The notes under the pieces are model-generated. The model saw nothing but the letters and a program-made list of their open reading frames with translations. It made no database searches and was not told the origin of the DNA. The position numbers were made by a program, and so were the translations under genes. From the NCBI GenBank assembly GCA_036015235.1, contig CP107926.1:930001-994000 (forward strand): a stretch of DNA of 64,000 nucleotides. The letters are read 5' to 3'. How positions within the stretch are numbered: position 1 is the first letter of the stretch; the number at the start of each line of letters is the position of its first letter. Origin of the DNA: Streptomyces sp. NBC_00433 (GTDB lineage Bacteria; Actinomycetota; Actinomycetes; Streptomycetales; Streptomycetaceae). Positions 43 to 56,137 of this stretch are shown here, one piece after another.

Positions 43-91
43 GTGGGGGCCTCCAGACGGGGCGGGTCCTCCGGCGGGGCCGGAGACGGGT

Positions 92-385
92 CTAGGCCGG
101 GGACAGGCCGGTGGACTGCCGGTCGGGTTCGGCGGCTTCGGCTTCGGCTTCGGCTTCGAGCGAGGCGTCCAGTGCGGCTTCGAGCACGACGGCACGGGCG
201 GGGCAGCGGGTGGCCGCGTCGCGCACGGACGAGGTCAGCTCCTCGGGCACAGGGTCCACCAGGACGTACGACAGGCCGTCGTCGTCGCTCTGGTCGAAGA
301 CCTCGGGGGCGGCGAGCACGCACTGCCCCGCCCCCACGCAGACGTCGCGGTCGACGACGGCACGCCGTACGGCGGGGGCGCTCAC
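92..385 (-). CDS. 3Fe-4S type ferredoxin, P450 electron donor
   Basis: This 97-residue small ferredoxin passes electrons to a bacterial class I P450, most likely its operon partner. The cluster-binding cysteines are visible as CVGAGQC near residues 18-24 and a distal CP near residue 62. The CxxxxxC spacing, with Ala where a fourth cysteine ligand could sit, is typical of [3Fe-4S] ferredoxins found beside actinomycete P450s. The start is the GTG at 385, which overlaps the P450 stop codon (GTGA) and implies translational coupling; a longer reading of the frame would run into P450 coding sequence. The tail beyond residue 70 is unusually acidic ([11 protein letters not shown]) and is encoded by a GGCTTC hexamer repeat at 134-157. 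Cytoplasmic. Confidence 0.92.
   Translation of the reverse strand: MSAPAVRRAVVDRDVCVGAGQCVLAAPEVFDQSDDDGLSYVLVDPVPEELTSSVRDAATRCPARAVVLEAALDASLEAEAEAEAAEPDRQSTGLSPA
134..157. repeat. GGCTTC hexanucleotide microsatellite, copy A
   Basis: Four perfect tandem GGCTTC units inside the ferredoxin gene. Read on the minus strand they encode the alternating Glu-Ala tail. The same hexamer recurs at 6726-6755, where the plus strand encodes an Ala-Ser linker. Confidence 0.9.
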
Positions 386-3657: not shown

Positions 3658-18867
<15,210 letters not shown>

Positions 18868-18899: not shown

Positions 18900-25520
<6,621 letters not shown>

Positions 25521-41200: not shown

Positions 41201-44136
41201 ACTGGAAAACCCTCTTCGCCAACACCCCCACCACCGACCTCCCCACCTACCCCTTCCAAACCACCCACTACTGGGCCAAATTGGCGGCCGGGAGTGGTGA
41301 TCCGAGCGGGTTGGGGCAGCAGGCGGCGAACCACCCGTTCCTGGGGGCGTCGGTGCACCTGCCGGATGGCGCGGCGCTGTTCACCGGGCGGATCTCCTTC
41401 GCCGACCACCCGTGGCTGGCGGACCACGCTGTCGGGGAGACCGTGCTGCTGCCCGGCACCGCCTTCGTCGAACTCGCCCTCCACGCTGCCGAAGGCACCG
41501 CGCACCAGGCGGTCGAGGAGCTGACGCTCGAAGCCCCTCTGGTCCTGTCTCCCGGCCAGGCGATCCAGCTCCAGGTCACTTTGGGGGCGCCCGACGACGC
41601 CGACCGCCGTGCCCTCACCGTGCACTCGCGGCCGGAGCCGGGCACCGGCGCGGCTCACGACGACCCGGACGCCACCGCGTGGACCCGGCATGCCACGGGT
41701 AGGCTCACCGCCGCCCAGCCGGAGCGCGCGCCGTCGCCGGCAGAGGGCGCCTGGCCGCCCCCCGGCGCCACCCCCATCGACCTCACCGACGCCTACGACA
41801 CGCTCGCCGACCAGGGCTATACCTACGGGCCCGCCTTCCAGAACCTCACCGCCGCCTGGCAGGACGGCGACGAACTGTACGCGGAGATCGGTCTCGCCGC
41901 GGACCAGCGGGCCCAGAGCGCGCGGTTCGGGGTGCATCCGGCGCTGCTGGACGCGGCGCTGCATCCGGTGGCGCTGGCGGCGCAGGCGCAGGCGCGGCTG
42001 CCGTTCGCGTGGAGCGGGGTACGGCTGTACGCCACCGGCGCGACGGCCGCCCGGGTCCACCTGACGCGTACCGGCGAGGACTCGCTGGCCGTCGAGTTGA
42101 CGGACGCGGCCGGGCAGGTGGTGGCCTCCGTCGAGCGGCTGACCACGCGGGTGCTGGATGCCGCGCAGGTCGCGGCGATCGGGCGGCAGCCGGTGGAGGG
42201 CCTGTATCGCGAGACGTGGGCGCCGCTGGCGGTCGAGGCGGCGCTCGGGGACGGCTCGCGCTGGGGTGTGCTGGGCGAGCCCGGGGAGTGGGCGCCGGGG
42301 CCGGTCTACGCCGACCAGGCCGCGGTGCCGGACGCCGACGGCCGGCCCGAGGCGCTGGTGCACTTCCTTCCCGCCACGGCCGATTTCGCATCAGCCGGCG
42401 GCGGCCGCCTCGACGTGCCTGGCCAGGCGCATGCGGCGGCAGAGCGGACGTTGCTGTTCCTGCAGTCCTGGCTGGCGGACGACCGGCTGCTCGACGTGCA
42501 CCTGGTGCTGGTCACCCGGGGCGCGGCCGCGGTCGGAGCGGGCGACGACCCGGACCTGGTGCAGGCCACCGTGACCGGCCTCGTAAGGACCGCGCAGAGC
42601 GAGTTCCCGCAGCGGATCACGCTGGTCGACAGCGACGGTACGGCGGAGTCGGGGCAGGCCCTGGCGCGGGTGGTCGCGGCGGCCCGGACGGGCGACGAGC
42701 CGTATGCCGCGGTCCGCGCAGGTGCGGCGTACGCGCTACGGCTGACGCGCCATGTCCCGGCACCGGACGACGAGTCCGCGCCCGCAGGCGACCCGGAGGG
42801 GACGACCCTCATCACCGGCGGCACCGGCGTCCTCGCCGGACTCACGGCGCTGCACCTCGCCGAGAACCACGGCCACCGACACTTCCTCCTGGCCAGCCGA
42901 TCGGGCCCGAACTCACCCGCCGCGACGGAACTCATCGCCGCCCTGGCCCAGTTCGACGCCACCGCCACCGTCGTCGCAGCCGACACCGCCGACCCCGACC
43001 AACTCGCCACCCTGCTCGCCGACGTACCCCACGACCACCCCGTCACCACCGTCATCCACGCCGCGGGCACCCTCAACGACGCCACCCTGACCAGCCTCAC
43101 GCCCGAGCAACTCCACGCCACGCTCACCCCGAAGGTCGACACGGCCTACTACCTCCACACCGCCGACCTCCCCCACCTCCAGCACTACGTCCTCTACTCC
43201 TCAGCGGCCGCCACCCTCGCCAACCCCGGACAGGCCAACTACAACGCCGCCAACAGCTTCCTCAACGCCCTCGCCCACCACCGCCACACCCACCACCAAC
43301 CCGCCACCAGCCTCGCCTGGGGCCTGTGGGAACAGACCAGCGCGCTCACCGGCACCCTGGACACCGGGCAGCACCGGCGGCTCAACCGGCAGGGCTTGCA
43401 GCCCCTCACCACCCCGCACGCCCTCGCCCTCCTCGACACCGCCCTGGCCGCACCTGACCCGGTGCTGCTGCCGGTCAGTCTCGACGCCCGAGCGCTGCGG
43501 GCGATCTCGCCGACGCCCGCGCTGCTGCGGCAGTTGGTGCGCCGGGCAGCGCGGCGGGGGCCGGAGGGACCGTCACGGCCCGCGGCACTGGCGGGGCTGC
43601 CGCCGGAGGAGCAGCGGCGCGAGGTGACGCAGTTGGTACGCGGCACGGTCGCGGCGGTGCTGGGGCACGCGGACCCGTCGGCGGTGGACACCGCGCGGCC
43701 TTTCAAGGAGCTGGGCTTCGACTCGCTCACCGGGGTCGAGCTGCGAAACCGGCTGGACGCGGCGACCGGGCTGCGGATGCCGGCGACGCTGGTCTTCGAC
43801 CAGCCGACGCCTTCGGCGGTCATCGACTTCGTGCTGGGGCGGCTCGCCGACTCCCGACCGGGCCCGGCGGCGCAGCTGTTCTCGGAGCTCGACCGGGTGG
43901 ACGCGGCGATCGCCGGGTTCGACGCGGCCGACGAGTCGGCGCGGGAGAAAGCGCTGTCCCGGGTGCGCGGCATCCTGTGGAGCCTGGAGGCGGCCGCGGG
44001 TGGCGGCGCCGCCGACGGGGCCGGCGTCGGCGATGGCGGCAACGGCGTCGACATCAGTACGGCGAGCGCCGAGGACCTGCTGGACCTGATCGACCGCGAG
44101 TTCGACCTCGGCGGCTCGGCCTCGGAGGGGGCGTGA
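32272..44136 (+). CDS. Type I PKS: modules 5 and 6
   Basis: A bimodular PKS of 3954 residues with N-terminal docking helix [20 protein letters not shown]. Module 5: KS (Cys207; QDGQSSQL replaces the usual QDGASNGL), AT (YASH 758-761: methylmalonyl), DH (His967 in [10 protein letters not shown], Asp1137), ER (NADPH loop near 1557), KR (from 1744, LND, Tyr1887), ACP (Ser2056). Module 6: KS (from 2124, Cys2297), AT (from about 2656, YASH 2844-2847: methylmalonyl), DH (His3052 in HAVGETVLLP, Asp3227), KR (from 3514, LND, Tyr3657), ACP (Ser3818). Module 6 has no ER, so it should leave an alpha-methyl alkene, while module 5 gives a saturated methyl-branched unit. The C-terminal docking region ends EDLLDLIDREFDLGG. 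ATs, KRs and KS 3' ends are near-copies of those in other modules. Confidence 0.96.
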   Translation: MANEEKLRDYLKRVTADLQQARRRLSQVESARHEPIAIVGMACRFPGDVHTPDELWSLLVDGTDATGPLPEDRGWSLEELYDPDPDRTGASYARTGGFLRDAGDFDASFFGINPREALATDPQQRLLLHTAWEALESARLDPTTLHGTRTGVFTGVIAQDYATRLAPEHAQDLEGYLATGNTTSVASGRIAYTLGLEGPTLTVDTACSSSLVAIHLASQALRGDECSLALAGGATVISAPNPFLEFSRQRGLAPDGRCKPFSDSADGFSLAEGAGLVVLERLSDARRNGHRVLAVIRGSAVNQDGQSSQLTAPNGPSQQRVIRAALADARLTTNDVDVVEAHGTGTPLGDPIEAQALQATYGKERPAERPLLLGSVKSNIGHTQAAAGIAGVIKMVLALQEGQLPATLHLNAPSQHVDWSAGTIALTQTAMTWPEVDRPRRAAVSSFGISGTNAHLILEQAPVEEDEDTVAEAAERHVVGPWLLSARTHDALIDQARRLRTHLDRHPGEDPHHLAAALATTRTHFTHRLAVTSPTREELVAALDQFAASEPASDVYEAVAPTDTPKTVLVFPGQGSQWPGMAQELLRTDPVFTEHIEACHHALAPFTDWHLIDTLNQTPGSADPDRVDVLQPMLWATMISLAKLWQHHGLTPHAVIGHSQGEIAAAHIAGALTLQDSARIIALRSQTFTTIAGHGTMLHVPLPAENLHERLADHTGVTIATLNSPASTTLSGDVDAIHRLHEVLQTEQIDSRLVPVDYASHSPHIDPLKEQILRELAPTAPQPATIPFHSTTHPQNTPTDTTTLDAAYWYDNLRQPVQLHATTTHLITTGHTLFIEPSPHPVLTHAIHQTAQNHPQGQPVTALGTLRRNHGTPTDLTTALAKAHTHNTPINWKTLFANTPTTDLPTYPFQTTHYWVKSSAGSGDVARAGLTRTQHPLLGAVVRLAEDGGSVLTGRLSSRDHPWLADHAVAGTVLLPGTAFVELALHAGEDTGHDTVDELTLEAPLVLHPEQAVQLQLTVGAPDEADRRTLTVHSRPEPDADDAGTTPWTRHATGTLTTALAPEPAPTPADAAWPPPGATPIDLTDAYDTLAARGYTYGPAFQNLTAAWQHGDDFYADLDQGADADPQTYGIHPALLDAALHPLVLAADGGTRLPFAWSGVRLHATGATAARVHLKRQGEDAVVIELTDAAGQPLLAVEQLITRPFDPAVLGTAGSAGRDSSLFRVEWTALPPAEPTAGTATDAESWAVWGQDDRLGLDLPVHPGLDALSDPAPAVVLRFLTAPDGADVVEQAHAAAEDTLLRLQDWLGATALADTHLVVVTANAAPVDHADDPDLVQATVTGLVRTAQSEHPGRITLIDLDGHPFSTAALIEAIGTVRAADEPHTALRKGELYAPRLTNTPQTQLAIPTDSDSAWRLALTSPGSPDQLALLPAPDLDGSLEPGQVRLALEAVGLNFRDVLITLGMYPEPVPHLGSEGSGVITEVGPEVTGFEVGDRVMGILTHGTAATTVTDHRVLARVPQGWTPAQAASATLAYATAYYTLVTLADLKPGQNLLVHTATGGVGQAATHLARHLGARLYATASLPKHHTLTAELGYDAENIADSRTHDYANHLLARTNGHGMDVVLHSLAHEHTDTTLRLLPRGGHFIDMSKTDIRDPDTINADHPGTRYQAIDLNDAGPDALQDILGALHRLFADGVLPPLPTAAYAIEDAPQALRHLSQARHTGKLALTLPRQPHPDGTTLITGGTGVLAGLTALHLAENHGHRHFLLASRSGPHSPQAAALVEQLAGRGATATVVSADTADPDALAALLADVPDDHPVTTVVHAAGTLNDATFTSLTPEQLHATLTPKVDAAHHLHTADLPHLERYVLFSSAAATLANPGQANYNAANNFLDALAHHRHTHHQPATSLAWGLWEQTSTLTGSLNTAQRQRLAQQGLHALTTPHALALLDTALAAPNALLLPVGLDARRLDPTLVPPVLRGLARRPSRRTAAGRAAGRGTTDVLRQQLARQSAAEQGETLLTLVRTQAAAVLGHPDGADAIQVDAAFKELGFDSLTAVELRNRLGTVTGLRLPTTMIFDYPSPARLAAYLRDELVDSAVGDRNAPAAARARTAAGAAGAADEPIAIVGMACHFPGGVRSPEELWALLSEGTDATGPFPTDRGWDLERLYDPDPDHLGTTYSRGGGFLHDAGDFDADFFGINPREALATDPQQRLLLHTAWEALENARLDPAGLHGTRTGVFTGVVAQNYAGQISAENTQELEGYLATGNTTSVASGRIAYSLGFEGPAMTIDTACSSSLVAIHLAAQALRGDECSLALAGGATVMAVPSPFLEFSRQRGLAPDGRCKPFSDSADGFSLAEGVGMVLLERLSDAERQGHRVLAVLRGSAVNQDGASNGLTAPNGPSQERVIRQALANSGLLPADIDAVEAHGTGTKLGDPIEAQALQATYGKERPAERPLLLGSVKSNIGHTQAAAGIAGVIKMVLALQEGQLPATLHLDAPSQHVDWSAGTIALTQTAMTWPEVDRPRRAAVSSFGISGTNAHLILEQAPATQEAEPAEPTAVGPWLLSARTPEALTDQVRRLRTHLDRHPGEDPHHLAAALATTRTHFTHRLAVTSPTREELHTALGHHIDGQPHPDLYAATAPSTSPKTVLVFPGQGSQWPGMAQELLRTDPVFTEHIEACHHALAPFTDWHLIDTLNQTPGAADPDRVDVLQPMLWATMISLAKLWQHHGLTPHAVIGHSQGEIAAAHIAGALTLQDSARIIALRSQTFTTIAGHGTMLHVPLPAENLHERLADHTGVTIATLNSPASTTLSGDLEAVHRLHEVLQAEHVDSRLVPVDYASHSPHIDPLRERILNDLAPTTPQPATIPFHSTTHPQNTPTDTTTLDAAYWYDNLRQPVQLHATTTHLITTGHTLFIEPSPHPVLTHAIHQTAQNHPQGQPVTALGTLRRNHGTPTDLTTALAKAHTHNTPINWKTLFANTPTTDLPTYPFQTTHYWAKLAAGSGDPSGLGQQAANHPFLGASVHLPDGAALFTGRISFADHPWLADHAVGETVLLPGTAFVELALHAAEGTAHQAVEELTLEAPLVLSPGQAIQLQVTLGAPDDADRRALTVHSRPEPGTGAAHDDPDATAWTRHATGRLTAAQPERAPSPAEGAWPPPGATPIDLTDAYDTLADQGYTYGPAFQNLTAAWQDGDELYAEIGLAADQRAQSARFGVHPALLDAALHPVALAAQAQARLPFAWSGVRLYATGATAARVHLTRTGEDSLAVELTDAAGQVVASVERLTTRVLDAAQVAAIGRQPVEGLYRETWAPLAVEAALGDGSRWGVLGEPGEWAPGPVYADQAAVPDADGRPEALVHFLPATADFASAGGGRLDVPGQAHAAAERTLLFLQSWLADDRLLDVHLVLVTRGAAAVGAGDDPDLVQATVTGLVRTAQSEFPQRITLVDSDGTAESGQALARVVAAARTGDEPYAAVRAGAAYALRLTRHVPAPDDESAPAGDPEGTTLITGGTGVLAGLTALHLAENHGHRHFLLASRSGPNSPAATELIAALAQFDATATVVAADTADPDQLATLLADVPHDHPVTTVIHAAGTLNDATLTSLTPEQLHATLTPKVDTAYYLHTADLPHLQHYVLYSSAAATLANPGQANYNAANSFLNALAHHRHTHHQPATSLAWGLWEQTSALTGTLDTGQHRRLNRQGLQPLTTPHALALLDTALAAPDPVLLPVSLDARALRAISPTPALLRQLVRRAARRGPEGPSRPAALAGLPPEEQRREVTQLVRGTVAAVLGHADPSAVDTARPFKELGFDSLTGVELRNRLDAATGLRMPATLVFDQPTPSAVIDFVLGRLADSRPGPAAQLFSELDRVDAAIAGFDAADESAREKALSRVRGILWSLEAAAGGGAADGAGVGDGGNGVDISTASAEDLLDLIDREFDLGGSASEGA
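33268..33657 (+). repeat. KS 3'-end repeat, copy 2 (module 5)
   Basis: Matches 26600-26989 almost base for base. Confidence 0.85.
33964..35016 (+). repeat. Methylmalonyl-AT repeat, copy 3 (module 5)
   Basis: Begins only at the codons just before [10 protein letters not shown] and runs to HYW. The upstream linker differs from copies 1 and 2, so the left recombination edge differs. Confidence 0.9.
36896..37311 (+). repeat. ER repeat, copy 3 (module 5)
   Basis: Near-identical to copies 1 and 2 from the codons for [10 protein letters not shown] onward. It is less similar just upstream. Confidence 0.88.
37501..38133 (+). repeat. KR repeat, copy 3 (module 5)
   Basis: 633-base KR block. More diverged in the middle (PQAAALVEQLAGRGATATVV) than the other copies. 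Confidence 0.85.
39587..39927 (+). repeat. KS 3'-end repeat, copy 3 (module 6)
   Basis: Shares the block from [10 protein letters not shown] to [10 protein letters not shown] with modules 4 and 5. Confidence 0.83.
40224..41274 (+). repeat. Methylmalonyl-AT repeat, copy 4 (module 6)
   Basis: Near-identical to copy 3 in extent, with a small variable patch around the codons for DLEAVHRLHEVLQAEHVD. Confidence 0.9.
42811..43443 (+). repeat. KR repeat, copy 4 (module 6)
   Basis: 633-base KR block in a module without ER, showing that KR homogenisation is independent of the ER. Confidence 0.86.
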
Positions 44137-44267
44137 GTCCGCCGGGGCCGGGTGCGGGGGCCGGACCGCCGCGTGCCGCGCAAGGTCTCCGTAAGCCGGG
44201 CTTTAGCGCCGGTCATGAGCATGAGGAAGTACGACCGCGAACTGCCGTCCACGGCGTCGCCGCGCCG

Positions 44268-44540: not shown

Positions 44541-46457
44541 ATGTCCGTGCCCGAGGAGGATGTGTTCGGGTTGCTGCGAGCCGGTCTGGCGGCCGGCGCC
44601 TACCCGCGGTTGCGGGGGCTGCTCGCCGGCCTGCCCGACGCGGATCTGCAGCGTGCCGGCCGCCTGCTGGCGCGGCTCGACCCGGCCGAGGTGCTGCGCG
44701 AGCACCCCGGCACGCCGGTGGTGAAGGTCTCCGTCACCGGCCATGGCACGCTGTCCGCGCTGGTGCCCGCGCTCACCGCGCAGGCCGCCCGGCACGGGCT
44801 GCTGCTGCGTCCGCACGTGTCGGCGTTCGACAGCTGGATCTTCGAGCTGTCCGATCCCGGAAGCGGGCTGTACGCGGCAGACGGCGACCTGACGCTGTGC
44901 GTGCTCGACCCTTTCGTCGTCTTCGACGAGGTGCCGGTGCCGTGGGGGCCGAAGGACGTCGAGCGGGTGCTCGCGGAGAAGCTGGCCACGCTGGAACGGC
45001 TGGTGAAGACCTTCGACGCGGCCGGTCGCGGTGGGGTGCTGGTGCTCAACACCATCCCGCTGCCGCGGCGTTGGACCGCCCAGCTGGTGGACCTGCGGTC
45101 GCGGGCCGAGCTGGGCGCGGTGTGGCGGGAGGCCAACGCCCGGCTGCTGCGGCTGGCCGGCGACTCCGTCGCCGTCGTCGACCTCGATCCGCTGGTGGCG
45201 GAGGGGGTGCCGGTCACCGACCCGCGGATGAGCGCCTACGCCAAAGACCACCTGTCGGCGGAACTGATCGCGGGATACGCCCGCGAGGTGGTGCACCTGG
45301 CCCGCAGCGGAGCGGGGCGGACGAAGAAGGCGCTGGTCGTGGACCTGGACGAGACGCTGTGGGGCGGGGTGCTCAGCGAGGAGGGCATCGACGGAATCGA
45401 GATCGGCGAAGGCTACCGGGGTGAGGCCTTCGCCGCATTCCAGCGGGTGGTCAAGCAGATCGGCTCACAGGGAGTGGTCCTGGCGGTGGCCAGCAAGAAC
45501 GACGCCGAGCCGGTGTCGAGGGCGCTGCGCGAGCGCGAGGGTATGGTCCTGCGCGAGGAGGACTTCGTCCGGGTGACGGCCAACTGGCGACCCAAGCACG
45601 AGAATCTGACCGAGCTGGCCGCAGCGCTGAACATCGGCGTGGACAGTCTGGTCTTTGCCGACGACAGCCCCTTCGAGTGCGGCCTGGTCGGGCGGCAGTT
45701 GCCGGAGGTCGCGGTGGTGCGGCTGGACGAGGAGCCGGCGCTGCACATCGAACGCCTGCTGGCCGACGGCTGGTTCGACGTCCGCGAGGTGACGGCGGAG
45801 GACCGGGCCCGGACCTCGCGCTACCGCGACGAGATGGTGCGGGCCGACTTCCGGGAGAGCTTCACCTCGGTGGACGACTACCTGGAGGAGCTGGACATCC
45901 GGGTGGAGCTGGCGGTGCCCTCCGACCGCGAGGTGCCGAGGGTGTCGCAACTGACGCTGCGCACCAACCAGTTCAACCTCACCACTCGGCGGTTGCAGCC
46001 CGCCGAGGTGAGCGCGTGGATCGCCGACCCGGCGGGGCTGGTGCTGCGGATCGCGTCCTCCGACAGGTTCGGCGAGAACGGCCTGGTGGGTGCGGTCTTC
46101 GCCCGCTGGGAGGAGAAGGTGCTGCGGATCGACAACATCGTGCTGAGCTGCCGGGTGTTCTCCCGCGGTATCGAGCAGGCCTGCCTGGCCGCGGTGCTGG
46201 CGCACGCCCGGTCGGAAGGGGCGAGCGCGGTGACGGGCGGCTACCGGCCGACGGCGAAGAACGCGATGGTCAGCGACTTCTACCCGCGGCACGGCTTCGT
46301 CCCGCTGGACGGCGGCGACGGGTCCGCCGCGTCCTTCCGCCACGACCTGGACGGCTCATCCGAGCCGGACGGGACCGGCGGGGCCGGCGCGCACGACAGG
46401 GCCGGCTTTCCGGCCTACGTACAGCTGACGACGACACTGAGCGGGGTACCACGATGA
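44541..46457 (+). CDS. FkbH-like HAD-superfamily glyceryl-ACP synthase candidate
   Basis: 638 residues. FkbH-family enzymes take 1,3-bisphosphoglycerate, dephosphorylate it and load the glyceryl unit onto an ACP, for methoxymalonyl-ACP or tetronate formation. The HAD nucleophile motif is intact: DLDETLWGG with Asp268 and Asp270. A downstream VFADDSPFE near 373 is the matching acidic motif. Residues 1 to about 260 form the N-terminal domain seen in long FkbH-like proteins. The C-terminal part (NQFNLTTRR onward) resembles an acetyltransferase-like fold. The ATG at 44541 follows GAGAGGA; upstream in-frame sequence is MITE, so a longer start is rejected. The next gene overlaps by ATGA. No FkbG/I/J/K homologues are present, which argues against a methoxymalonyl role. 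Partner ACP unknown. Confidence 0.88.
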   Translation: MSVPEEDVFGLLRAGLAAGAYPRLRGLLAGLPDADLQRAGRLLARLDPAEVLREHPGTPVVKVSVTGHGTLSALVPALTAQAARHGLLLRPHVSAFDSWIFELSDPGSGLYAADGDLTLCVLDPFVVFDEVPVPWGPKDVERVLAEKLATLERLVKTFDAAGRGGVLVLNTIPLPRRWTAQLVDLRSRAELGAVWREANARLLRLAGDSVAVVDLDPLVAEGVPVTDPRMSAYAKDHLSAELIAGYAREVVHLARSGAGRTKKALVVDLDETLWGGVLSEEGIDGIEIGEGYRGEAFAAFQRVVKQIGSQGVVLAVASKNDAEPVSRALREREGMVLREEDFVRVTANWRPKHENLTELAAALNIGVDSLVFADDSPFECGLVGRQLPEVAVVRLDEEPALHIERLLADGWFDVREVTAEDRARTSRYRDEMVRADFRESFTSVDDYLEELDIRVELAVPSDREVPRVSQLTLRTNQFNLTTRRLQPAEVSAWIADPAGLVLRIASSDRFGENGLVGAVFARWEEKVLRIDNIVLSCRVFSRGIEQACLAAVLAHARSEGASAVTGGYRPTAKNAMVSDFYPRHGFVPLDGGDGSAASFRHDLDGSSEPDGTGGAGAHDRAGFPAYVQLTTTLSGVPR

Positions 46458-47602
46458 CCGAGGGCAGGACGACGGCCGGCAGAATTCCGGCGGCGGGCAC
46501 CGCCAACGATGTGCGGGAGCTGAAGCAGTTCGTCGAAGTGCACGCCAAGGCGCAGCAGTTGAGCCCGAAGACCTATCGGCCGCTGCTGGCGCGTATCACC
46601 GACGACGGCGAGGGCACCCCCGGCTCGTGGGTGTACGAGTGGAGCCGGGCGGGAGCCGAGGCCGAGGCGGCCGGCCGGCTGCTCGAAGCCAGCCGCTACT
46701 ACAACATGGCCCGCTTCCCGTTCGTCAACGGACCTGCCCGGCAGGAGGCGTTGGACCGCTGCGTGGCCGCCTTCGACGCCTGGCGCGGCACCCAGAAGGG
46801 CATCGAGCGGCTGGACGTGGACCTGCCGGCGGGCCGGGTGCGCTGCTGGACGTCGGGGCTGCCCGCGGCCGGCTCCGAAGGCAGGCGCCTGCCGCTGCTG
46901 CTGGTGACCGGCGGCATCGTGAGCGTCAAGGAGCAGTGGGCGCCGATCCTGGTGCAGGCCACCCGGCTCGGCGTGGCGGGTGTGGTCGCCGAGATGCCCG
47001 GCGTCGGCGAGAACACCCTGCCCTACGACGAGGACAGCCCCGCGATGCTGTCGGCGATCCTGGACGCGGTCGGCGAGCGGGCCGACACCGGGCAGACGTA
47101 TCTGGTGGCGCTGAGCTTCAGCGGCCACATGGCGCTGCGGGCCGCGGCGGCCGATCCCCGTATCAAGGGGGTGATCACCGCGGGTGTGCCGGTCAGCTCG
47201 TTCTTCTCCGACCGCGAGTGGCAGGCGCAGGTGCCGCGGGTCACCGTGGACACGCTGGCGCACCTGCTCGGCACTGCCCCGGGCGGCGTCGGCGACCGGG
47301 TGGCGGGCTGGGGCCTGGCCGACGCCGAACTGGGCGCGCTGGACGTGCCGGTGGCGTGCCTGTGGAGCCGTCGCGACGAGATCATCCCGTCCGCCGATCC
47401 GCGGGCACTGCTGCGCTCGGTGCGCCGGCTGGACCTGGTCGACAACGACGACGTGCACGGCTCGCCGTCGCACCTGCTCGAAACGCGGGTGTGGGTGCTG
47501 CTGTCGCTGCTGCGGATGCTCGGCGTACGTGACGTGAAGCGGCTGGTCTTCGGCGCACTGTGGCGTGCGCTGCGGCTGGCCGGCCGGCGGCGCGGGAACT
47601 GA
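46454..47602 (+). CDS. Alpha/beta hydrolase, FrsA-like (DUF1100 type)
   Basis: A 382-residue alpha/beta hydrolase with an extended helical N-terminal part. A nucleophile elbow reads ALSFSG with Ser221 as likely nucleophile (Ser223 adjacent). The likely acid is Asp308 (SRRDEI) and the base His335 (DVHGSPSH). The central [14 protein letters not shown] matches the FrsA/dienelactone-hydrolase style. It starts at an ATG overlapping the FkbH stop, so the two are translationally coupled and probably act in one step. Alpha/beta hydrolases of this general type accompany FkbH-like enzymes in tetronate cassettes, where they eliminate acetate to form an exocyclic methylene. An alternative is an offloading or editing hydrolase, since the final PKS lacks a thioesterase. 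The C-terminus is Arg-rich and hydrophobic. Substrate unknown. Confidence 0.82.
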
Positions 47603-47633
47603 CCCGCGCCGCAGACGGGGAGAGGGAGTGGGT

Positions 47634-50600
47634 ATGGCGGACGAGGCGAAGCTCGTCGATTACCTCAAGCGGGTCACCGCGGATCTGCGGCGGGCCCGAC
47701 AGCGGGTGCGGGAGTTGGAGGCCGAGCGGACCGACCCGATCGCCGTGGTCGCCATGGGCTGCCGCTACCCGGGCGGGGTGCGCGGGCCGGAGGACCTGTG
47801 GCGGCTGGTCTCGGAGGGCGTGGACGCCATCGGCGGCTTCCCGACCGACCGCGGCTGGGACCTGGACGCGCTGTACGACCCGGACCCGGAGCGACCCACC
47901 ACGTCGTACACCAGGCGCGGCGGCTTCCTCTACGACGCGGACCGCTTCGACGCGGACTTCTTCGGCATCAGCCCGCGCGAGGCGCTGGCCACCGACCCGC
48001 AGCAGCGGCTGCTGCTGGAGGTGGCCTGGGAGACCCTGGAGCGGGCCGGGATCGACCCGGCGGGGCTGCGCGGCAGCGACACCGGGGTCTTCGCCGGGGT
48101 GATGTACGACGACTACGCCTCCCGCCTGCGGCAGGTGCCCGACGAGGTGGCGGGTCTGATCGGCAACGGCAGCGCGCCGAGCGTGGCGTCCGGCCGGATC
48201 GCGTACACCTTCGGCTTCCGCGGCCCCGCGGTGTCGGTGGACACGGCGTGCTCCTCGTCGCTGGTGACGCTGCACCTGGCCGCGCAGGCGCTGCGGGCGG
48301 GCGAGTGCGCGCTGGCGCTGGCCGGCGGTGTCACGGTGATGGCCACGCCGGGGCTTTTCGTGGAATTCAGCCGGCAGCGCGGGCTGTCGGCGGACGGCCG
48401 CTGCCGGTCCTTCGGGGCCGGTGCGGACGGCGCGGGCTTCTCCGAGGGCGTGGGCCTGCTGCTGCTGGAGAAGCTCTCGGACGCGCGGCGCAACGGACAC
48501 CCGGTGCTCGCGCTGCTGCGTGGCAGCGCCGTGAACCAGGACGGCGCGAGCAACGGCCTGACCGCCCCCAACGGCCCTTCGCAGCAGCGGGTGATCCGGC
48601 AGGCGCTGGCGAGCGCGCGGCTGCGGGCCGACCAGGTCGACGTGGTCGAGGGGCACGGCACCGGGACGTCGCTGGGCGACCCGGTGGAGGCGCAGGCGGT
48701 GCTCGCCACGTACGGCACGGACCGGCCCGCCGACCGGCCGCTGCGGCTCGGCTCGGTCAAGTCCAACATCGGGCACACCCAGGCCGCCGCCGGTGCCGCG
48801 GGCGTGATCAAGATGGTGATGGCGATGCGGCACGGGGTGCTGCCGCGCACCCTGCACGCCGACGAGCCGTCGCCGCACGTCGACTGGAGTGCGGGCGCGG
48901 TGGAGCTGCTGACGGAGGAGCTGCCCTGGCCGGGCGGCGCCGAGCCGCGGCGCGCGGCCGTGTCGTCCTTCGGGATCAGCGGTACGAACGCCCATGTGAT
49001 CCTGGAGGAGGCGCCGCCCGCGGCGGGCGGTACGGGCGAGGACGAGGGCGACGAAGCGGCTGACGGCGCCGCCGACCCGGCCGAGGTGGTCGCGCCGCCG
49101 CTCGCGCCGTGGGTGCTGTCGGCCCGCACCCCGGACGCCTTGCGGGCGCAGGCGGCGCGGCTGCTGGACGCGGTGGCCGCGCCCGCGGGAGACGACCGCG
49201 ACCCGGTCGACGTCGGCCGCGCGCTCGCGTCCACCCGCAGCGCCTTCGAGCACCGTGCCGCGGTCGTCGCCGAGGACGCCGCGGGGCGGTCCGCCGCGCT
49301 GGCCGCGCTGGCCGCCGGCGGCACGGCACCCGGGCTGCTCACCGGTATCGGCGTCAAGCCGCCCACGACCGCGTATCTGTTCACCGGGCAGGGCAGCCAG
49401 CGGGCGGGCATGGGGCGGGAGTTGTACGACGCCTTCCCTGTCTTCCGTGCCGCCCTTGACGAGGTGCTGGCCGAGCTGGACCCGCTCCTGGAGCGGCCGT
49501 TGGCGCCGCTGCTGTGGGCGGCGCCCGGTTCTGAGGAGGCGGCGCAGCTGGACCGCACCCGCTTCACCCAGCCCGCGATCTTCGCCGTGGAGACCGCCCT
49601 CTACCGGCTGCTCGCCGGCTACCGGCCGGCCCCCGACCTGCTGGCCGGCCACTCGGTGGGCGAGCTGGCCGCCGCCCATGCCGCCGGGATGCTGGACCTG
49701 CCGGACGCGTGCCGGCTGGTCGCGGCCCGCGGGGCGCTGATGGACGCGCTGCCGGCGGGCGGGCTGATGACCTCGCTGCGCGCCTCGGAGGCCGAGGTGC
49801 TGGAGTCCTTCGACGGGGTGGCGGGCCGTATCGGGATCGCCGCGGTCAACGGCGCGCAGTCCACCGTGGTCTCGGGGGACGCCGACGCGGTGGCCGAGGT
49901 CACCGCCCGCTGGCGGCAGCGCGGCCGGCGGGTGAAGCAGCTGCGGGTCAGCCACGCCTTCCACTCCGCGCACATGGACGGCATGCTCGCCGACTTCGAG
50001 CAGGTCGCGGCGGGGGTACGCTTCCGCGCGCCGTCGATCCCGGTGGTCTCGGGCCTCACGGGCCGTCCCGAGGAGCGGATGACGACGCCCGCCTACTGGG
50101 CCGAGCAGGTGCGCGGCGCCGTGCGCTTCCACGACGCGGTGCGGCACCTCGCGGACGCGGGCGTGACCGCCTTCGTGGAGGTCGGTCCGGATGTCGCGCT
50201 CGCGCCGATGGCGCAGGAGAGCGGCGCCGCGGACGCCGTCGTCATCCCGACGCTGCGCCGCGGCCGGCCGGAAGCCCGCACGCTGGCCGTGGCGCTGGCC
50301 ACCCTGCACGTCAACGGGGCCCCGGTGGACTGGAGCCGGTGGTACGGCGCCCCGGGGCCGCAGGACGCGGCCCGCCATGTGCCGCTGCCGACCTACCCTT
50401 TCCGCCAGGTCCGCTACTGGCTGGACGAACCGGCCGCGCAGGCCCCCGAGAACCGCTCGGACGACGCCTTCTGGGACGCGGTGACCGCGGGCGACGTCGA
50501 CGGCGCCGCGACGGCCCTCGGCCTGGCAGACGCGACCGGGCCCGCCCTCGACGCGCTGCTGCCCCAGCTCGCCGCGTGGCGGCGCCGCCACACGTGGTGG

Positions 50601-52124
50601 TACCGCTTCGACTGGCGTCCGGCGGCCTCCGCCACCACGGCGGCCGGCCCGGGGCGCTGGCTGCTGCTGGGCGGCGAGGACGCCGCGGTGGGCGGTGCCC
50701 TGGCCGCGGCCGGGGCCGAGATCAGCCGTGCCGGTGTGCGGGATGCCGCCGAGTGGCCGCGGCTCGCCGCCGACCCCGCGCTCGACGGGGTGCTGCTCTT
50801 GCCCGGCGCGGTCGACGGCCCCGAGGAACTGGCCGCGCTCGTCCGGGACTTCGACGCCGCCGGGGTCCGCGTACCGCTGTGGGCGGTGACCCGGCAGGGC
50901 GTCGGGGTCGACGCCGACGACGACAGCCCCGCAGCCGCCCAGGCGCCGCTGTGGGATCTGCCCGCCGGCATTGCGTGCGGCCTGGTCGACCTGCCGGCCG
51001 AGGTGGACGCGGCCGCGGGCGCCGCCTTCGCGGCCGCGCTGGGGCAGGGCGGCGAGGACCGCATCGCGGTTCGCCGCACCGGGACGTGGGTGCGGCGGCT
51101 GCTGCCGGTCCCGGCGCCGGAGCCCGACCCGAAGATCGCGGCGGCGCTGCGGTCGGGTACGGCACTGGTGGCCGGATCCGGGCCGCTGGCAGGGGAGTTC
51201 GCGGCCGCGCTGGCCGCTCAGGGCGCGGGCCGGGTGCTGCTGGCCGGTCCGGACGCCGGCGTGCCCGCCGGGTCCGGGGTCACACCGGTGGCGTGGGCCG
51301 CCGGGGACGAGGCGGCGCTGGCGGCGGTCCTCGCCGACCTGCCCGCGGACCTCCCGCTGGCCGCGGTCGCGGTGGTCGCCGAGAGCGGCACGCCCTCGGC
51401 CGCGTCGGCCGCGGGGACGGCGCACCTGCTGGACCGGCTGACCCGCGCGTACGACCCGGCGGCCTTCGTCCTGCTGTCCGACGGCCTGCTGTCCTCGCTC
51501 GGCCTGCGGCAGCCGGACGGGCCCGCCGCGCACGCCCCCTTCGAGGCCCTCGCCCACGCCCGCCGCGACGCGGGCCTCCCCGCGGTGGCCCTCTCGCTCG
51601 GCCCCTGGCAGCCCGCCGACACCCCCGGGGTGCGCCCCGTCACCGTCGGCATGCTCACCCATGTGCTGACCGGGCCGGCCGCGTCGCTCGCCGTCGCGGA
51701 CCTCTCGTGGCCGGAATTGGACGCCGAACAGCTCGCCGCCGCAAGGGCGTTGCCGCTGCTGCGGGACGTCCCGCGGGTCACCGCGGCCGGCGGGTCCGGC
51801 AGCGGGCCCGCCGTGGCCGGGCAGTTGCGGGACCGGCTGGCCACCGTGCCCGACGGGGCCCGCCTCGACGTGCTGATCGAGCTGGTGCGGGCCCACGCGG
51901 CCAGCGTCCTCGGCCACGAGTCGGCCGCGTCCGTACCCGAGGAGGCGAGCCTCCTCGACCTGGGCTTCTCGTCCTTCACCGCACTGGAGATGCGGGGGCT
52001 GCTGAGCGAGGACACCGGCCTGGACATCTCCGCGATGGCCGTCTTCGACCACCCCACCCCGCGTGCCCTGGCCCACCACCTCCACGAGGCGCTCATCGCC
52101 GCCCACCCTTCAGGTGGGTTTTAG
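47634..52124 (+). CDS. Type I PKS: module 7, terminal (KS-AT-KR0-ACP, no TE)
   Basis: 1496 residues. N-terminal docking helix [20 protein letters not shown], then KS (Cys206, [12 protein letters not shown]) and AT (from about 580, GHSVGE, HAFH 774-777: malonyl). A KR-type linker follows ([19 protein letters not shown]), then a KR-like region about 1177-1330, then ACP. The KR looks dead: the Rossmann motif is AGSGPLAG instead of GGTGxLG, the catalytic Ser is replaced in LLSDGLL, and no Tyr stands at the active position. The 3-keto group should therefore persist. The ACP motif is GFSSFT rather than GFDSLT, with Ser1447 the presumed phosphopantetheine site and Ser1446 in the Asp position. The protein stops soon after, with neither a thioesterase nor a long docking tail. 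It therefore looks like the last module, with release in trans. The ATG at 47634 follows GGGAGAGGGAG. Confidence 0.95.
52102..52122 (+). terminator. Intrinsic terminator overlapping the module 7 PKS stop codon
   Basis: CCCACC-CTTCA-GGTGGG forms a 6-bp stem directly followed by TTTT. The hairpin is within the last codons (HPSGGF) and the T-run touches the TAG stop at 52122-52124. It could end or attenuate transcription before the ABC importer genes. Confidence 0.55.
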
Positions 52125-52186: not shown

Positions 52187-53842
52187 TTGCTAGGCAGCCG
52201 AGGCGGGGGCTCGAAGCAGTCAGGGTTGGTACTCAAGACGGTCGCGGCGGGACTGGTGTGTCTGACCGCCGCGGCCTGCACGTCAGGCGGCTCCAGCGCC
52301 GGCGGCGACAGCGGCACCCCGACCGCCGGCGGCGACCTGAAGTTCGCCACCTCCGTGGAACCGGAGTGCCTGGACCCCGAGGTCGGCGCCCGCGACGTGG
52401 ACGCGCTGATCGACCGGAACATCTTCGACTCGCTGGTGGAGCAGGTCAAGGGCGGCACTTTCAAGCCGTGGCTGGCGACGTCCTGGACGATCTCGCCGGA
52501 CCAGCGGACGTACACCTTCACCCTGCGCCCGGGGGTGCTCTTCCACGACGGCACCCCGCTGGACGCGGCGGCGGTCAAGGCGACCCTGGACCACGCCGTC
52601 GACCCCAAGGCCCGCTCCTACTACGCGGCGAGCCTGATCTCCGCCTACAGCGGCGCGACGGTGGTCAACGCCACGACGGTCGCCATCCACCTCTCGCGCC
52701 CGTCGCGGCCCTTCCTGCAGGCGCTGTCCACCCCCTACCTGGGCATCCAGTCGCCGAAGTCGATCCGGGAGAACGGCACGAGCCTGTGCCAGAAGCCGGT
52801 GGGCTCCGGCCCGTTCGTCTTCGACAACTGGGCCAAGGGCACCAGCGTGAAGCTGACGCGCAACGCGAAGTACGCCTGGGGCCCGTCGACGGCCGCCCAC
52901 ACCGGGCCGGCCCGGCTGAACAGCCTGACCTTCAGCTTCGTCTCGGAGGACTCCGTCCGGCTGGGCGCGCTGACCTCCGGCCAGGCCGACGTGATCAGCG
53001 AGGTCCCGCCGCACGACGTGACCGTGGTGCGCAAGGTCGACCAGCTGCTGACCACCCCCGAGCCGGGCGCGGTCTACACGCTGCTGCTGAACACCAGGTT
53101 CGGGCCCCTCACCGACGAGCGCGTCCGCAAGGCCCTCCAGCGCTCGGTCAACCTCGACAAGCTCGTCGACTCGGTCTACGCCGGGCAGTACAAGCGGTCC
53201 TGGAGCGTGCTCTCCCCGGCGACCCCCGACTACGACAAGGCCACCGCCGACAGCTGGCCGTACGACCCGGCGCTGGCGGGCTCGCTGCTGGACCAGGCCG
53301 GCTGGACCGGCAGGGACGCGCAGGGATACCGCACCAAGGACGGCAAGCGGCTGACGCTGCGCTGGCCTTACTCGGCGATCCAGCAGCGCGACCAGCGGGT
53401 GGTGTTCGGCCAGGGCATCCAGGCCGAGGCGAAGAAGGTCGGCATCGACCTGCAGTACGCCAGCGAGGACCCCGGCAAGCTCGGCGCCGACCTCAACAGC
53501 GGCAAGAACCTCGACATCTTCGCGATGAGCTTCGTGCGCGCCGACCCGGACATCCTGCACTTCTACTTCGGCTCCGACCAGACGGTGGCCAAGGGCGGCG
53601 GCAACATGTTCCAGCTGTCCGACGCCACGCTCGACGGCTGGTTCGGCACCGAGAGCTCCACATCGAGCCCCGCGGCCGCGACCACCGCGGTCGCCGCCGC
53701 GCAGCAGTACATCAACCAGCACGCGCTGGCACTGCCCACCTACGCCTCGTCGTATCTGCTGGGCGCGGCGCACAAGGTGCACGGCGTCACCTTCGACCCG
53801 ACCGCCTACCCGCTGTTCTACGACGTCTGGCTGGGCAAGTGA
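52187..53842 (+). CDS. Peptide-type ABC transporter substrate-binding lipoprotein (family 5)
   Basis: 551 residues, the extracytoplasmic receptor of a dipeptide/oligopeptide (DppA/OppA-like) importer, anchored in the membrane as a lipoprotein. The N-terminus has a positively charged start, a hydrophobic core (VLKTVAAGLVCLTAAAC) and a lipobox cysteine at residue 31, followed by a Gly/Ser-rich spacer. The body shows family 5 features such as LKFATSVEPECLDP near the mature start and TDERVRKALQRSVN. I chose the rare TTG start at 52187 because a perfect GAAGGAG lies six bases upstream; a GTG at 52148 in the same frame is the alternative. The stop overlaps the next gene (GTGA). Cargo unknown. Confidence 0.9.
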   Translation: MLGSRGGGSKQSGLVLKTVAAGLVCLTAAACTSGGSSAGGDSGTPTAGGDLKFATSVEPECLDPEVGARDVDALIDRNIFDSLVEQVKGGTFKPWLATSWTISPDQRTYTFTLRPGVLFHDGTPLDAAAVKATLDHAVDPKARSYYAASLISAYSGATVVNATTVAIHLSRPSRPFLQALSTPYLGIQSPKSIRENGTSLCQKPVGSGPFVFDNWAKGTSVKLTRNAKYAWGPSTAAHTGPARLNSLTFSFVSEDSVRLGALTSGQADVISEVPPHDVTVVRKVDQLLTTPEPGAVYTLLLNTRFGPLTDERVRKALQRSVNLDKLVDSVYAGQYKRSWSVLSPATPDYDKATADSWPYDPALAGSLLDQAGWTGRDAQGYRTKDGKRLTLRWPYSAIQQRDQRVVFGQGIQAEAKKVGIDLQYASEDPGKLGADLNSGKNLDIFAMSFVRADPDILHFYFGSDQTVAKGGGNMFQLSDATLDGWFGTESSTSSPAAATTAVAAAQQYINQHALALPTYASSYLLGAAHKVHGVTFDPTAYPLFYDVWLGK

Positions 53843-54855
53843 GCCCGCAGGACACGCAGGACCGGCCGGGCGTCCAGGACGGGCACGCCAAGGGAGGCGA
53901 CCCGGCGGCCACGCCGGGTGCGTCGAACCTGTGGCGGTGGCTCGTACGGCGGCTGCTGCTGTCGGTCGTGGTGGTGCTCGGCTCGGCGACGGCCGCCTTC
54001 GTGGCGCTCTACCTGCTGCCGGGCGACCCGGTGCAGACCATGCTCGGACCCACGGGGCAGACCCCGGCGCTGGTCGCCGAGGTGCGGCACGAGACGGGCT
54101 TCGACCACCCGGTCTACGTCCGCTACGGGCTCTTCATGGGGCGGCTGCTGCGCGGCGACCTCGGCCGGTCCTACCAGCTGCACCAGTCCGTGAAGAGCCT
54201 GATCTTCGACCAGTTGGGCTCGACGGTCGAACTGGCCGTGACCGGCTTCGTGCTGGCGCTGGTGGTGGCCACGGTGCTCGCCGTGACCACCGCCGGGCGC
54301 CGCCCGCTGCTGCGGGGCCTGGCCTCCACCGTGGAACTGGTGCTCGCCTCGCTGCCCGGGTTCTGGATCGGGGTGCTGCTGCTGACCTTCTTCTCCTTCC
54401 GCTGGCAGCTCTTCCCCGCGGTCGGCGGCAACGGCGTCAACGGGCTCGTGCTGCCGTCGGTGACGCTGGCCCTGACGCTGCTCGGCGTGTTCGCGCAGGT
54501 CATGCGGGAGGGCATGGAAAGGGCGCTGAGCGAGCCGTTCGTGCTCAGCTCCCGGGCCCGCGGCGCGGGCGAGACGACCGTGAGGGTGCGGCACGCGCTG
54601 CGGCACGCCATGGTGCCGATGGTCACGCTGTCCGGCTGGTCGGTCGGCGCGCTGCTCAGCGGCGCCGTCATCATCGAGACGATCTTCAGCCGGCCGGGCC
54701 TGGGACGGGTGCTCGTGTCGGCGGTCAACAGCCGCGACCTGCCGGTGATCAGCGGTGTGGTGGTGGTCTCCGCGGTGGCCTTCAGCGCGGTCAATCTCCT
54801 TACCGATGTGCTCTACCGCGTGGTCGACCCACGACTGAAGGAGGCGCAGGCATGA
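53839..54855 (+). CDS. ABC transporter permease, DppB-like
   Basis: 338 residues, first integral membrane subunit of the peptide-type importer. It has a cytoplasmic N-terminal stretch of about 30 residues, then a helix LLLSVVVVLGSATAAFVALY, the conserved LPGDPVQTML segment of DppB-type permeases, and further membrane spans. The EAA loop that contacts the ATPase is visible around SSRARGAGETTVRVRHALRH, followed by TIFSRPGLGRVL. The start is the GTG at 53839 overlapping the stop of the binding protein, and the end overlaps the amidohydrolase start (ATGA), so expression is tightly coupled. Confidence 0.92.
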   Translation: MSPQDTQDRPGVQDGHAKGGDPAATPGASNLWRWLVRRLLLSVVVVLGSATAAFVALYLLPGDPVQTMLGPTGQTPALVAEVRHETGFDHPVYVRYGLFMGRLLRGDLGRSYQLHQSVKSLIFDQLGSTVELAVTGFVLALVVATVLAVTTAGRRPLLRGLASTVELVLASLPGFWIGVLLLTFFSFRWQLFPAVGGNGVNGLVLPSVTLALTLLGVFAQVMREGMERALSEPFVLSSRARGAGETTVRVRHALRHAMVPMVTLSGWSVGALLSGAVIIETIFSRPGLGRVLVSAVNSRDLPVISGVVVVSAVAFSAVNLLTDVLYRVVDPRLKEAQA

Positions 54856-56096
54856 CGCGACGCGTGCTGGCGGCGGAATTGGTACTTCCCGGCGGCGACC
54901 AGGAGGCCGTGCCGGACGGCGCGGTGCTGGTGGACGGCGACAAGATCGCCGACGTCGGCCCCAGGGACGCGGTGATCGGGCGCGCCCCGGCCGGCACCCC
55001 GGTGCGGGAGCTGGGCGCGGCCACGCTGCTGCCCGGCCTGATCGACTGCCATGTGCACCTGGTCTTCGACGGCAGCGAGGACCCGCTGACCGGCTTCCTG
55101 GCGGCGGACGACGCCGCGCTGCTGCCGGCGATGGCCGGCCGCGCCGCGCGGCTGCTGGACGCGGGGGTGACCACCGCCCGCGACCTGGGCGACCGCAACG
55201 GCCTGGTGCGCAAGGTGCGGGACGCGATCACCGCGGGCGACATCCCCGGGCCCCGGCTGCTGTCAGCCGGGACACCGGTGACCGTGACCGGCGGCCACTG
55301 CTGGTTCCTCGGCGGCGAGGCCGACGGCCAGGACGCGGTGCGGGCCGCGGTGCGCCGCAACCTGCGCGACGGCGCCGACCTGACCAAGATCATGGTGACC
55401 GGCGGCACCATGACCACGACCGGGCCGCGCCCGCACCAGGTGCAGTTCACCGCCGCCGAACTCGCCGCCGCCGTCGAGGAGTCGGCGCGCTTCGGCCGCC
55501 GGGTCGCCGCGCACGTGCACGGCACCGAGGGCATCGAGGCAGCCCTTGAGGCGGGCGCGGACACCCTGGAGCACTGCACCTTCGCCTCGCCGGTGAAGGG
55601 CCGGCCGGCGCACAAGCACGAGCTGATCGACCGGATGGCCGCCGACGGGGTCTTCGTCTGCCCGACCTTCAGCAGCACGCTGGACTGGGTCGAGCGCGAG
55701 CGCGGCCTCGACACCATCAAGCCCTATCTGGACCTGGTGCGGCGGGAGTTCGAGGCCGGTGTGCGGCTGGTGGCCGGCACCGACGCGGGTGTGCACCTGG
55801 CCGCCTTCGAGGGCTACGCGGAGGGCCTGCTGTGGTACGAGCGGGCCGGGCTGCCGGTGGAGGCGGTGCTGAAGATGGCCACGTCGGAGGCGGCCGCCGC
55901 ACTCGGCATAACGGACCGCACGGGGCGTATCGCGCCGGGCCTGGACGCCGACCTGCTGGTCGTGCCCGGGGACCTGCGCGAGGACCTGCGGGCGCTGCGC
56001 GACCCGCTGCTGGTCCTGGCCCGCGGCCGCGTCCACATCCCGCCGGCCGCGGCGGAACGCGCGGTGCTGGGGCCGCGGGAGAAGGTGGCGCCGTGA
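54852..56096 (+). CDS. Metal-dependent amidohydrolase (imidazolonepropionase/prolidase-like)
   Basis: A 414-residue cytoplasmic enzyme of the amidohydrolase superfamily with a TIM-barrel metal site. Visible ligands are HxH in LIDCHVHL (His67, His69), His221 and His223 in AHVHGTEG, His241 in LEHCTF, and Asp311 in AGTDAGVH. The Lys in DLTKIMVTGG is at the place where this group often has a metal-bridging lysine. The ending ITDRTGRIAPGLDADLLV is the usual C-terminal beta-sandwich return. It sits between the two permease genes and overlaps the first, so it presumably cleaves an amide or cyclic amide in whatever the transporter imports. A link to polyketide maturation, such as removing a protective acyl-amine, is possible but not shown. 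Confidence 0.88.
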   Translation: MTRRVLAAELVLPGGDQEAVPDGAVLVDGDKIADVGPRDAVIGRAPAGTPVRELGAATLLPGLIDCHVHLVFDGSEDPLTGFLAADDAALLPAMAGRAARLLDAGVTTARDLGDRNGLVRKVRDAITAGDIPGPRLLSAGTPVTVTGGHCWFLGGEADGQDAVRAAVRRNLRDGADLTKIMVTGGTMTTTGPRPHQVQFTAAELAAAVEESARFGRRVAAHVHGTEGIEAALEAGADTLEHCTFASPVKGRPAHKHELIDRMAADGVFVCPTFSSTLDWVERERGLDTIKPYLDLVRREFEAGVRLVAGTDAGVHLAAFEGYAEGLLWYERAGLPVEAVLKMATSEAAAALGITDRTGRIAPGLDADLLVVPGDLREDLRALRDPLLVLARGRVHIPPAAAERAVLGPREKVAP

Positions 56097-56137
56097 ACAG
56101 CGCAGGTGGCAGAGCGGCGGACGGGGCGGCCTCATGA
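56093..56137 (+). CDS. Possible 14-residue coupling mini-ORF
   Basis: A GTG overlapping the amidohydrolase stop (GTGA) opens a 14-codon frame, MNSAGGRAADGAAS. It ends at a TGA overlapping the ATG of the next permease (ATGA). It could carry ribosomes across the 37-base gap, where the permease lacks a good ribosome site of its own. It may be chance. Confidence 0.25.
   Translation: MNSAGGRAADGAAS

Follow-up and report, generated by a model that had tools for sequence, protein, structure and literature searches.

A predicted abyssomicin-like tetronate gene set distributed around its polyketide synthase in Streptomyces sp. NBC_00433, possibly of okilactomycin type

In this work we examined an FkbH-like gene, the alpha/beta-hydrolase gene that overlaps it and the polyketide synthase (PKS) module that follows, in a window of 64,000 nucleotides of Streptomyces sp. 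NBC_00433 (bases 930001-994000 of one 8.99 Mb contig; negative window coordinates lie upstream of the window start). These genes very probably form the downstream part of a full tetronate-forming system, whose upstream part lies before the window, in an abyssomicin-like cluster of predicted class I spirotetronate type. We lean slightly towards the more specific reading of an okilactomycin-type cluster whose tetronate genes are divided between two co-regulated operons placed around the PKS, FkbH and the hydrolase being coupled to the last module. Genes were called with a simple home-made caller, so that starts and small genes are uncertain.

An initial annotation, made from the letters of the window, had described an FkbH-like gene with an intact HAD motif, an overlapping alpha/beta hydrolase, and a last module with a dead ketoreductase (KR), a malonyl acyltransferase (AT) and no thioesterase (TE); each of these features was recovered. 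The FkbH-type glyceryl transferase/phosphatase of the AbyA2 type (44541..46457, + strand, 638 aa) scored 309 bits against NCBIfam TIGR01686 (cut-off 146.65), carries the HAD motif DLDET at residue 268 and also retains FEC. Its reading frame overlaps by 4 bases that of the hydrolase (46454..47602, + strand, 382 aa), which Pfam assigns as FrsA-like. The closest solved relative of the hydrolase is AbyA5 (PDB 4ywf, E 6e-119), followed by FrsA (E 9e-12), and Ser221, Asp308 and His335 are conserved in the alignment with its relatives. The AbyA5 match and the alignment, rather than a tree, thus identify it as a putative acetate-eliminating enzyme of the AbyA5/Agg5 type. The genome holds a single FkbH and, at E 1e-30, one such hydrolase; within the genus, 11 of 35 genomes have the latter, 3 of the 35 at 92% identity or more, the window's own genome counted. 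The last PKS protein (47634..52124, + strand, 1496 aa) is module 7, organized as docking-ketosynthase (KS)-AT-DE-(KR remnant)-acyl carrier protein (ACP). Its AT motifs, GHSVG and HAFH, are of the malonyl type, its KR lacks the Tyr stretch retained in modules 1-6 and reaches a Pfam score of 22.4 against a cut-off of 22.6, and no TE domain match was found in this protein.

It had also been pointed out, correctly, that the KAS III-like enzyme, the discrete ACP and the acyltransferase of tetronate systems are absent from the window; either they lay outside it or release followed a reduced, possibly new route. Extending the contig upstream located all three, 4.1-6.9 kb before the window. The discrete ACP (window -6921..-6694, L009:13079-13306, PF00550) is followed on the + strand by an AbyU-type cyclase (-6496..-6002, L009:13504-13998, PF18678), the FabH-like (KAS III-like) synthase (-5997..-4936, L009:14003-15064, PF08545/PF08541), the 2-oxoacid-dehydrogenase-type acyltransferase (-4880..-4065, L009:15120-15935, PF00198) and an FAD protein (-4031..-1989, L009:15969-18011, PF13454). 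We compared the five tetronate proteins (A1-A5) with those of 53 loci that hold the full ordered A1-A5 set, taking as invariant the residues conserved in at least 95%. The window's proteins keep 333 of 342 such residues: 89/92 in the FabH-like enzyme (A1), 119/121 in FkbH (A2), 9/9 in the ACP (A3), 54/56 in the acyltransferase (A4) and 62/64 in the hydrolase (A5). Among them are Cys134 of the FabH-like enzyme, DLDET of FkbH, Trp34-Asp35-Ser36 of the ACP, DHRVIDG of the acyltransferase and Ser221, Asp308 and His335 of the hydrolase; catalytic roles were assigned from what is known of the respective families. A reduced or new route needing FkbH and the hydrolase alone is therefore very improbable: the window by itself does look incomplete, and the two genes overlap and adjoin the last module, but the other genes lie in the same conserved cluster with their catalytic residues intact. 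Thus, no new release chemistry is required at this locus.

The cyclase is an allene-oxide-cyclase-like barrel. At the sequence level it matches the PDB entries 9qp8, 8of7, AbyU (5dyv), 9uuv, AbmU, 7dvi, PyrI4 and Tsn15, and its AlphaFold model (21 sequences; mean pLDDT 83, pTM 0.75) resembles in fold LucK, Cyc15, AbyU, PyrI4, Cyc15b, AbnU, AbmU and Tsn15 (E 1e-11 to 1e-8). Both the matches and the model identify the barrel protein as a predicted spirotetronate [4+2] cyclase of the AbyU kind. The discrete ACP, the FabH-like enzyme and the acyltransferase were thus all found together with the AbyA5/Agg5-type eliminase and the AbyU-type cyclase, and the predicted AbyA1-A5 set plus a spirotetronate-type cyclase is complete in the cluster.

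Genes, families, residues and conservation were observed directly, and the enzyme roles proposed here are those of characterised relatives, with a product structure that is predicted. Following the tetronate chemistry described in PMC4979870 and PMC3625739, the PKS would finish with its last ACP carrying a beta-ketoacyl chain, while FkbH would charge the discrete ACP with a glyceryl unit. Chain and glyceryl unit would then be joined by the FabH-like enzyme, which would also close the tetronate and so release the chain. After acetylation of the hydroxymethyl group by the acyltransferase, acetate elimination by the AbyA5-type hydrolase would give an exocyclic methylene. By analogy with abyssomicin, the AbyU-type cyclase may finally catalyse a [4+2] addition between this methylene and the diene at the chain terminus, yielding a spirotetronate within a 13-membered carbocycle. 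Release by condensation with a C3 unit, as initially proposed, is hence supported, A1-A5 being in one conserved cluster with the checked catalytic residues intact.

The proposal had called for phylogenetic comparison of FkbH and the hydrolase with tetronate enzymes. The FkbH falls with the FkbH of tetronate loci, and the match and alignment given above place the hydrolase with AbyA5. Identity between the window's FkbH and 61 FkbH of A5-bearing loci is 48-91% (across at least 570 residues in 60 of the 61), whereas 19 distant FkbH reach 28-36% across the domain; four further rows (L174-L177), whose tetronate linkage was not shown, are 54-55% identical to it. The tree comprised 87 of 92 rows, L169, L170, L172, L173 and L180 being omitted as repeats with matching scores, and AbyA2 and Agg2 were not among the rows; L171 and L178, each adjoining an A5 gene, were for that reason moved to the tetronate label. 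In this tree the 64 tetronate rows need one label change, compared with a mean of 20.6 after shuffling, and none of 500 shuffles was as low. The FkbH of the window, of Actinacidiphila paucisporea and of a second comparison genome, G025, form their own lineage with a support of 100. This lineage stands outside the large subclade whose loci have AbyU-, LuxR-, luciferase- and ABC-type genes, as does likewise the FkbH of S. abyssomicinicus (L076), and is also separate from the pair formed by A. kijaniata and S. olivaceus. Profile, identity, tree and residues together point to a glycerate-activating FkbH of the tetronate kind. The most familiar setting of FkbH-like genes is the methoxymalonyl-ACP pathway, and FkbH might be imagined to serve a methoxy- or hydroxymalonyl-ACP extender next to a hydrolase that is an unrelated editing enzyme. 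The chance of this is next to nil, for the motifs of the eight ATs are all of the malonyl or methylmalonyl type, the FkbH belongs to the tetronate group and the hydrolase is of the AbyA5 type; a methoxymalonyl-ACP pathway was thus rejected on AT motifs and tree.

The tetronate genes of this cluster are split, four PKS genes separating the upstream A1, A3 and A4 genes from FkbH and the hydrolase. To place this arrangement, we scanned a named collection of 84,980 species, from which the genome of the window or a very close relative of it may be missing, for hydrolase loci; 80 of 109 confirmed loci were kept, several of them ending at contig ends, and the five genes were recognised with score thresholds of our own. 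The best hydrolase match came from A. paucisporea (95%), the other 79 kept loci being at 44-61%. In 53 of the 80 loci, A1-A2-A3-A4-A5 are ordered on one strand within 4.6-7.9 kb (within 5.4 kb in 48 of the 53), with extra genes intervening in some. The other loci show A1-A3-A4-A5 with no FkbH found (10 loci: L051, L052, L060, L068, L077, L078, L093, L095, L099 and L107), A5 alone (5), A1-A2-A3-A5 (3), A1 and A5 (2), and seven single cases, including rearranged sets in L049, L063 and L073; as many of the 80 loci stop at contig ends, gene absences there are weak. FkbH plus hydrolase without the other three genes occurs in one locus of the 80, that of A. paucisporea, which is this same cluster. 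The split arrangement is rare, and it is fully conserved in G025 and partly seen in A. paucisporea. A dispersed FkbH was also seen in other genomes: in G007 and G020 it is on another contig, and in G019 it lies about 2.1 Mb from the A5 gene.

The whole cluster was compared with those of G025 and A. paucisporea, which with the window make three clusters. Gene order is the same in G025, namely P450, SARP, LuxR, luciferase-like, TetR, methyltransferase and SARP genes, then the ACP through to the type II thioesterase. From ACP to thioesterase, 22 genes were matched, of which 21 share 81-95% identity with their G025 counterparts; the first PKS gene is 76% identical over the aligned part, and the small ferredoxin gene was not called in G025. 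In A. paucisporea, a contig starts with the end of the fourth PKS gene and runs on through the FkbH-hydrolase pair and the last module to the genes of the ABC transporter and the thioesterase. The FAD gene (95%), which belongs to the upstream half, was seen on another contig.

A stretch before FkbH (44182..44226, + strand) is conserved in the three clusters and contains CTTTAG at 44201. In 120,000 bases around the cluster, CTTTAG occurs three times, always in intergenic sequence, which makes up about 6.9% of the total: at -6677 before the cyclase-FabH-acyltransferase operon, at 1672 (minus strand) before P450 genes, and at 44201 before FkbH. In 100,000 bases of G025 it also occurs three times, in the same three places. 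The motif was chosen after viewing upstream sequences, so the rarity count is not a clean test and the recurrence in G025 is the better argument. This recurrence suggests a common regulation of the separated parts, with CTTTAG as a candidate regulator site. Scanning the sequence before FkbH with promoter and terminator consensus patterns gave no match. Between the CTTTAG site and FkbH lies a 231-bp element resembling a miniature inverted-repeat transposable element (MITE), with perfect 16-base inverted ends (44268-44498), and the distance from CTTTAG to FkbH is 341 bases in the window versus 110 in G025. A. paucisporea and G025 lack the element at the equivalent position, and the window's genome holds three further near-full-length copies (91-93%).

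The assembly line encoded around these genes was read from AT and reductive-domain motifs, interpreted by customary conventions. The first PKS gene (3658..18867, + strand) encodes the loading unit KSQ-AT-ACP, with a malonyl AT, followed by module 1 (methylmalonyl, dehydratase (DH), KR) and module 2 (malonyl, DH, KR). The following genes, all on the + strand, encode module 3 (18900..25520; malonyl, DH, enoylreductase (ER), KR), module 4 (25604..32176; methylmalonyl, DH, ER, KR), and modules 5 (methylmalonyl, DH, ER, KR) and 6 (methylmalonyl, DH, KR; both in 32272..44136). The G025 PKS yields an identical series of modules; two of its KR entry motifs missed the pattern, the catalytic motif being there in both. 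Bookkeeping along the line predicts an acyl chain of 20 carbons carrying a methyl-substituted diene at its terminus, a methyl-substituted enone and, in addition, two methyl branches; once the C3 unit is added and acetate has left, the product would be C23H32O4 (372.2301). Abyssomicin C is C19H22O6. The same bookkeeping on the modules of its cluster (aby) as read in PMC3625739 gave C19H22O5, one oxygen short of abyssomicin C, as would be expected for the state preceding epoxidation. Our formula is fragile, since altering one AT or reductive call gave a different formula in each of four variants tried. The DH-ER-KR regions of modules 3-5 are mutually 76-80% identical, against 43-46% with modules 1 and 2; modules 3-5 apparently arose through recent module duplication.

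The predicted formula is the one listed for okilactomycin D in a dereplication table (PMC8825997), a match that holds if every AT and reductive call is correct and that is suggestive, not proof. Okilactomycin is reported to combine a spirocentre-bearing cyclohexene and a 2,6-cis-tetrahydropyranone with a carboxyl group (PMC8955454); spirocentre, cyclohexene and pyranone are compatible with the predicted chain. It has been classed both with 3-alkylidenetetrahydropyran-4-ones (PMC7038078) and with spirotetronates (PMC10143065), and the latter paper mentions chrolactomycin alongside a telomerase-inhibitor paper. The ring features of okilactomycin and okilactomycin D (S. griseoflavus, S. scabrisporus) are compatible with a precursor that has the predicted diene, exomethylene and enone; the final oxidation pattern, double-bond positions and stereochemistry lie outside the prediction. 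Okilactomycin has a 13-membered ring. A tetronate oxygen adding to the enone would give the pyranone, and the P450s could supply the oxidation of a methyl to a carboxyl group. From the predicted formula, an okilactomycin-type product seems to us somewhat better than an even chance. A considerable but less than even probability goes to another class I spirotetronate made by the same release machinery; it would either have a new skeleton or be a C23H32O4 isomer. Indeed, the double bonds of the okilactomycin core are placed otherwise than in the simplest prediction, so that isomerisation, or reduction and desaturation, would be needed, and the comparison took in no genome of a proven okilactomycin producer. 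The hydrolase was found at E 1e-20 in none of four genomes guessed as Embleya (S. scabrisporus), which without a positive control shows nothing. Among the open-access titles and abstract openings searched, no paper on an okilactomycin gene cluster was found, although one may exist elsewhere. The okilactomycin-type reading is favoured by the formula and by the reported ring features, and offers a testable gene cluster for a cytotoxic antibiotic family (okilactomycin, chrolactomycin). Moreover, separated operons with a conserved shared element, and a cyclase together with its predicted diene and dienophile, might provide material for mechanism and engineering studies.

Some observations weigh against the proposed tetronate system and its product. 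Branch support for the 64 tetronate FkbH rows alone is 57, rising to 99 with L174-L177 included, and the tree program warns of long branches separating the distant FkbH from the others. The A1-A5 genes are dispersed, unlike those of most relatives, and their joint regulation is inferred. Colinearity of the PKS is assumed in the prediction. The 231-bp insert upstream of FkbH could weaken FkbH expression, and, lying between the conserved upstream element and the gene, it might be taken as the mark of a system that is degenerate or a silent remnant in this strain. We regard such decay as unlikely: PKS and tetronate frames are uninterrupted, catalytic residues are intact, and the close identity of 21 of 22 genes to G025 also stands against it.

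In comparison with known systems, the aby cluster of Verrucosispora maris AB-18-032 likewise has AbyA1-A5, an AbyU-type cyclase and a TE-less last module, and also shares two SARP, LuxR, TetR, luciferase-like, MFS, ABC, P450 and type II thioesterase genes (PMC3625739). In aby, A1-A5 form one group located upstream of the PKS, whereas in the cluster studied here PKS genes enclose FkbH and the hydrolase and the remaining tetronate genes are upstream; the aby PKS comprises seven modules, one with DH, ER and KR (PMC3625739), versus eight units with three such modules here. An abyssomicin cluster proper, with a seven-unit PKS and a C19 product, was therefore rejected as an identification, eight units and C23 being predicted. 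Class II spirotetronates (kijanimicin, lobophorin, chlorothricin) share the tetronate genes with our cluster. The strains A. kijaniata (L057) and S. olivaceus (L059) are presumably tied to this class, and their FkbH belong to another subclade than the window's. Agglomerin A, RK-682 and tetronomycin are not known to be macrocyclic spirotetronates. Their pathways also use an FkbH-like protein, a glycerate-carrying ACP and a FabH-like condensation, and agglomerin the Agg4/Agg5 acetylation-elimination as well (PMC4979870). Class II spirotetronates carry a decalin ring (PMC6521127).

Other genes flank the G025 cluster on both sides (on the right, 12 kb past the thioesterase), and the cluster bounds are therefore placed at about C1:912792-989973 (window -17208 to 59973, about 77 kb). 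The left part includes a third P450 (-17208..-15997, PF00067) and a second P450 gene (-1166..42, - strand, starting inside the window at 1..42), recognised by its BLAST match to the P450 at 382..1617 (- strand, PF00067). A ferredoxin (92..319, - strand, PF13370; frame start uncertain) and an AbyD-like MFS exporter (1832..3352, - strand, PF07690) are also encoded there. Downstream of module 7 come oligopeptide-type ABC transporter genes resembling AbyF1-F4 (52226..59081, + strand; PF00496, PF00528, PF00005) and, at the right edge of the conserved cluster, an AbyT-like type II thioesterase (59143..59973, + strand, PF00975). Among the transporter genes, an amidohydrolase gene (54864..56096, PF01979) occurs in all three clusters (91-95%) and has no counterpart among the aby genes listed in the excerpt of PMC3625739. 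With regard to a decalin-forming FAD cyclase, which would speak for class II rather than class I, a Pfam scan of part of the called genes assigned the large FAD protein of the cluster to PF13454 and not to PF01494. This protein was rejected as a cluster marker, since homologues are widespread in the family (314 of 394 genomes), only three of them at 86% or more. A PF01494 FAD protein lies just beyond the conserved cluster (62035-63102), has no counterpart in the 12 kb right flank of G025 and is probably outside this pathway.

Further to the right, a neighbouring cluster (window 66995-89972, L013:6995 to L014:9972) encodes a type II minimal PKS (ACP and two KS) and type I PKS genes, as well as cupin/ABM and SnoaL-like proteins, an AfsA-domain protein and a discrete AT. 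As far as the first type I PKS, this gene set also adjoins the A. paucisporea cluster; the 12 kb flank of G025 lacks it. Elsewhere on the contig, equal-score matches were found in mirror placement (C1:186873-188860 with 8797715-8799702, and 202576-202636 with 8783938-8783998), which suggest terminal inverted repeats of >200 kb bearing a KS pair.

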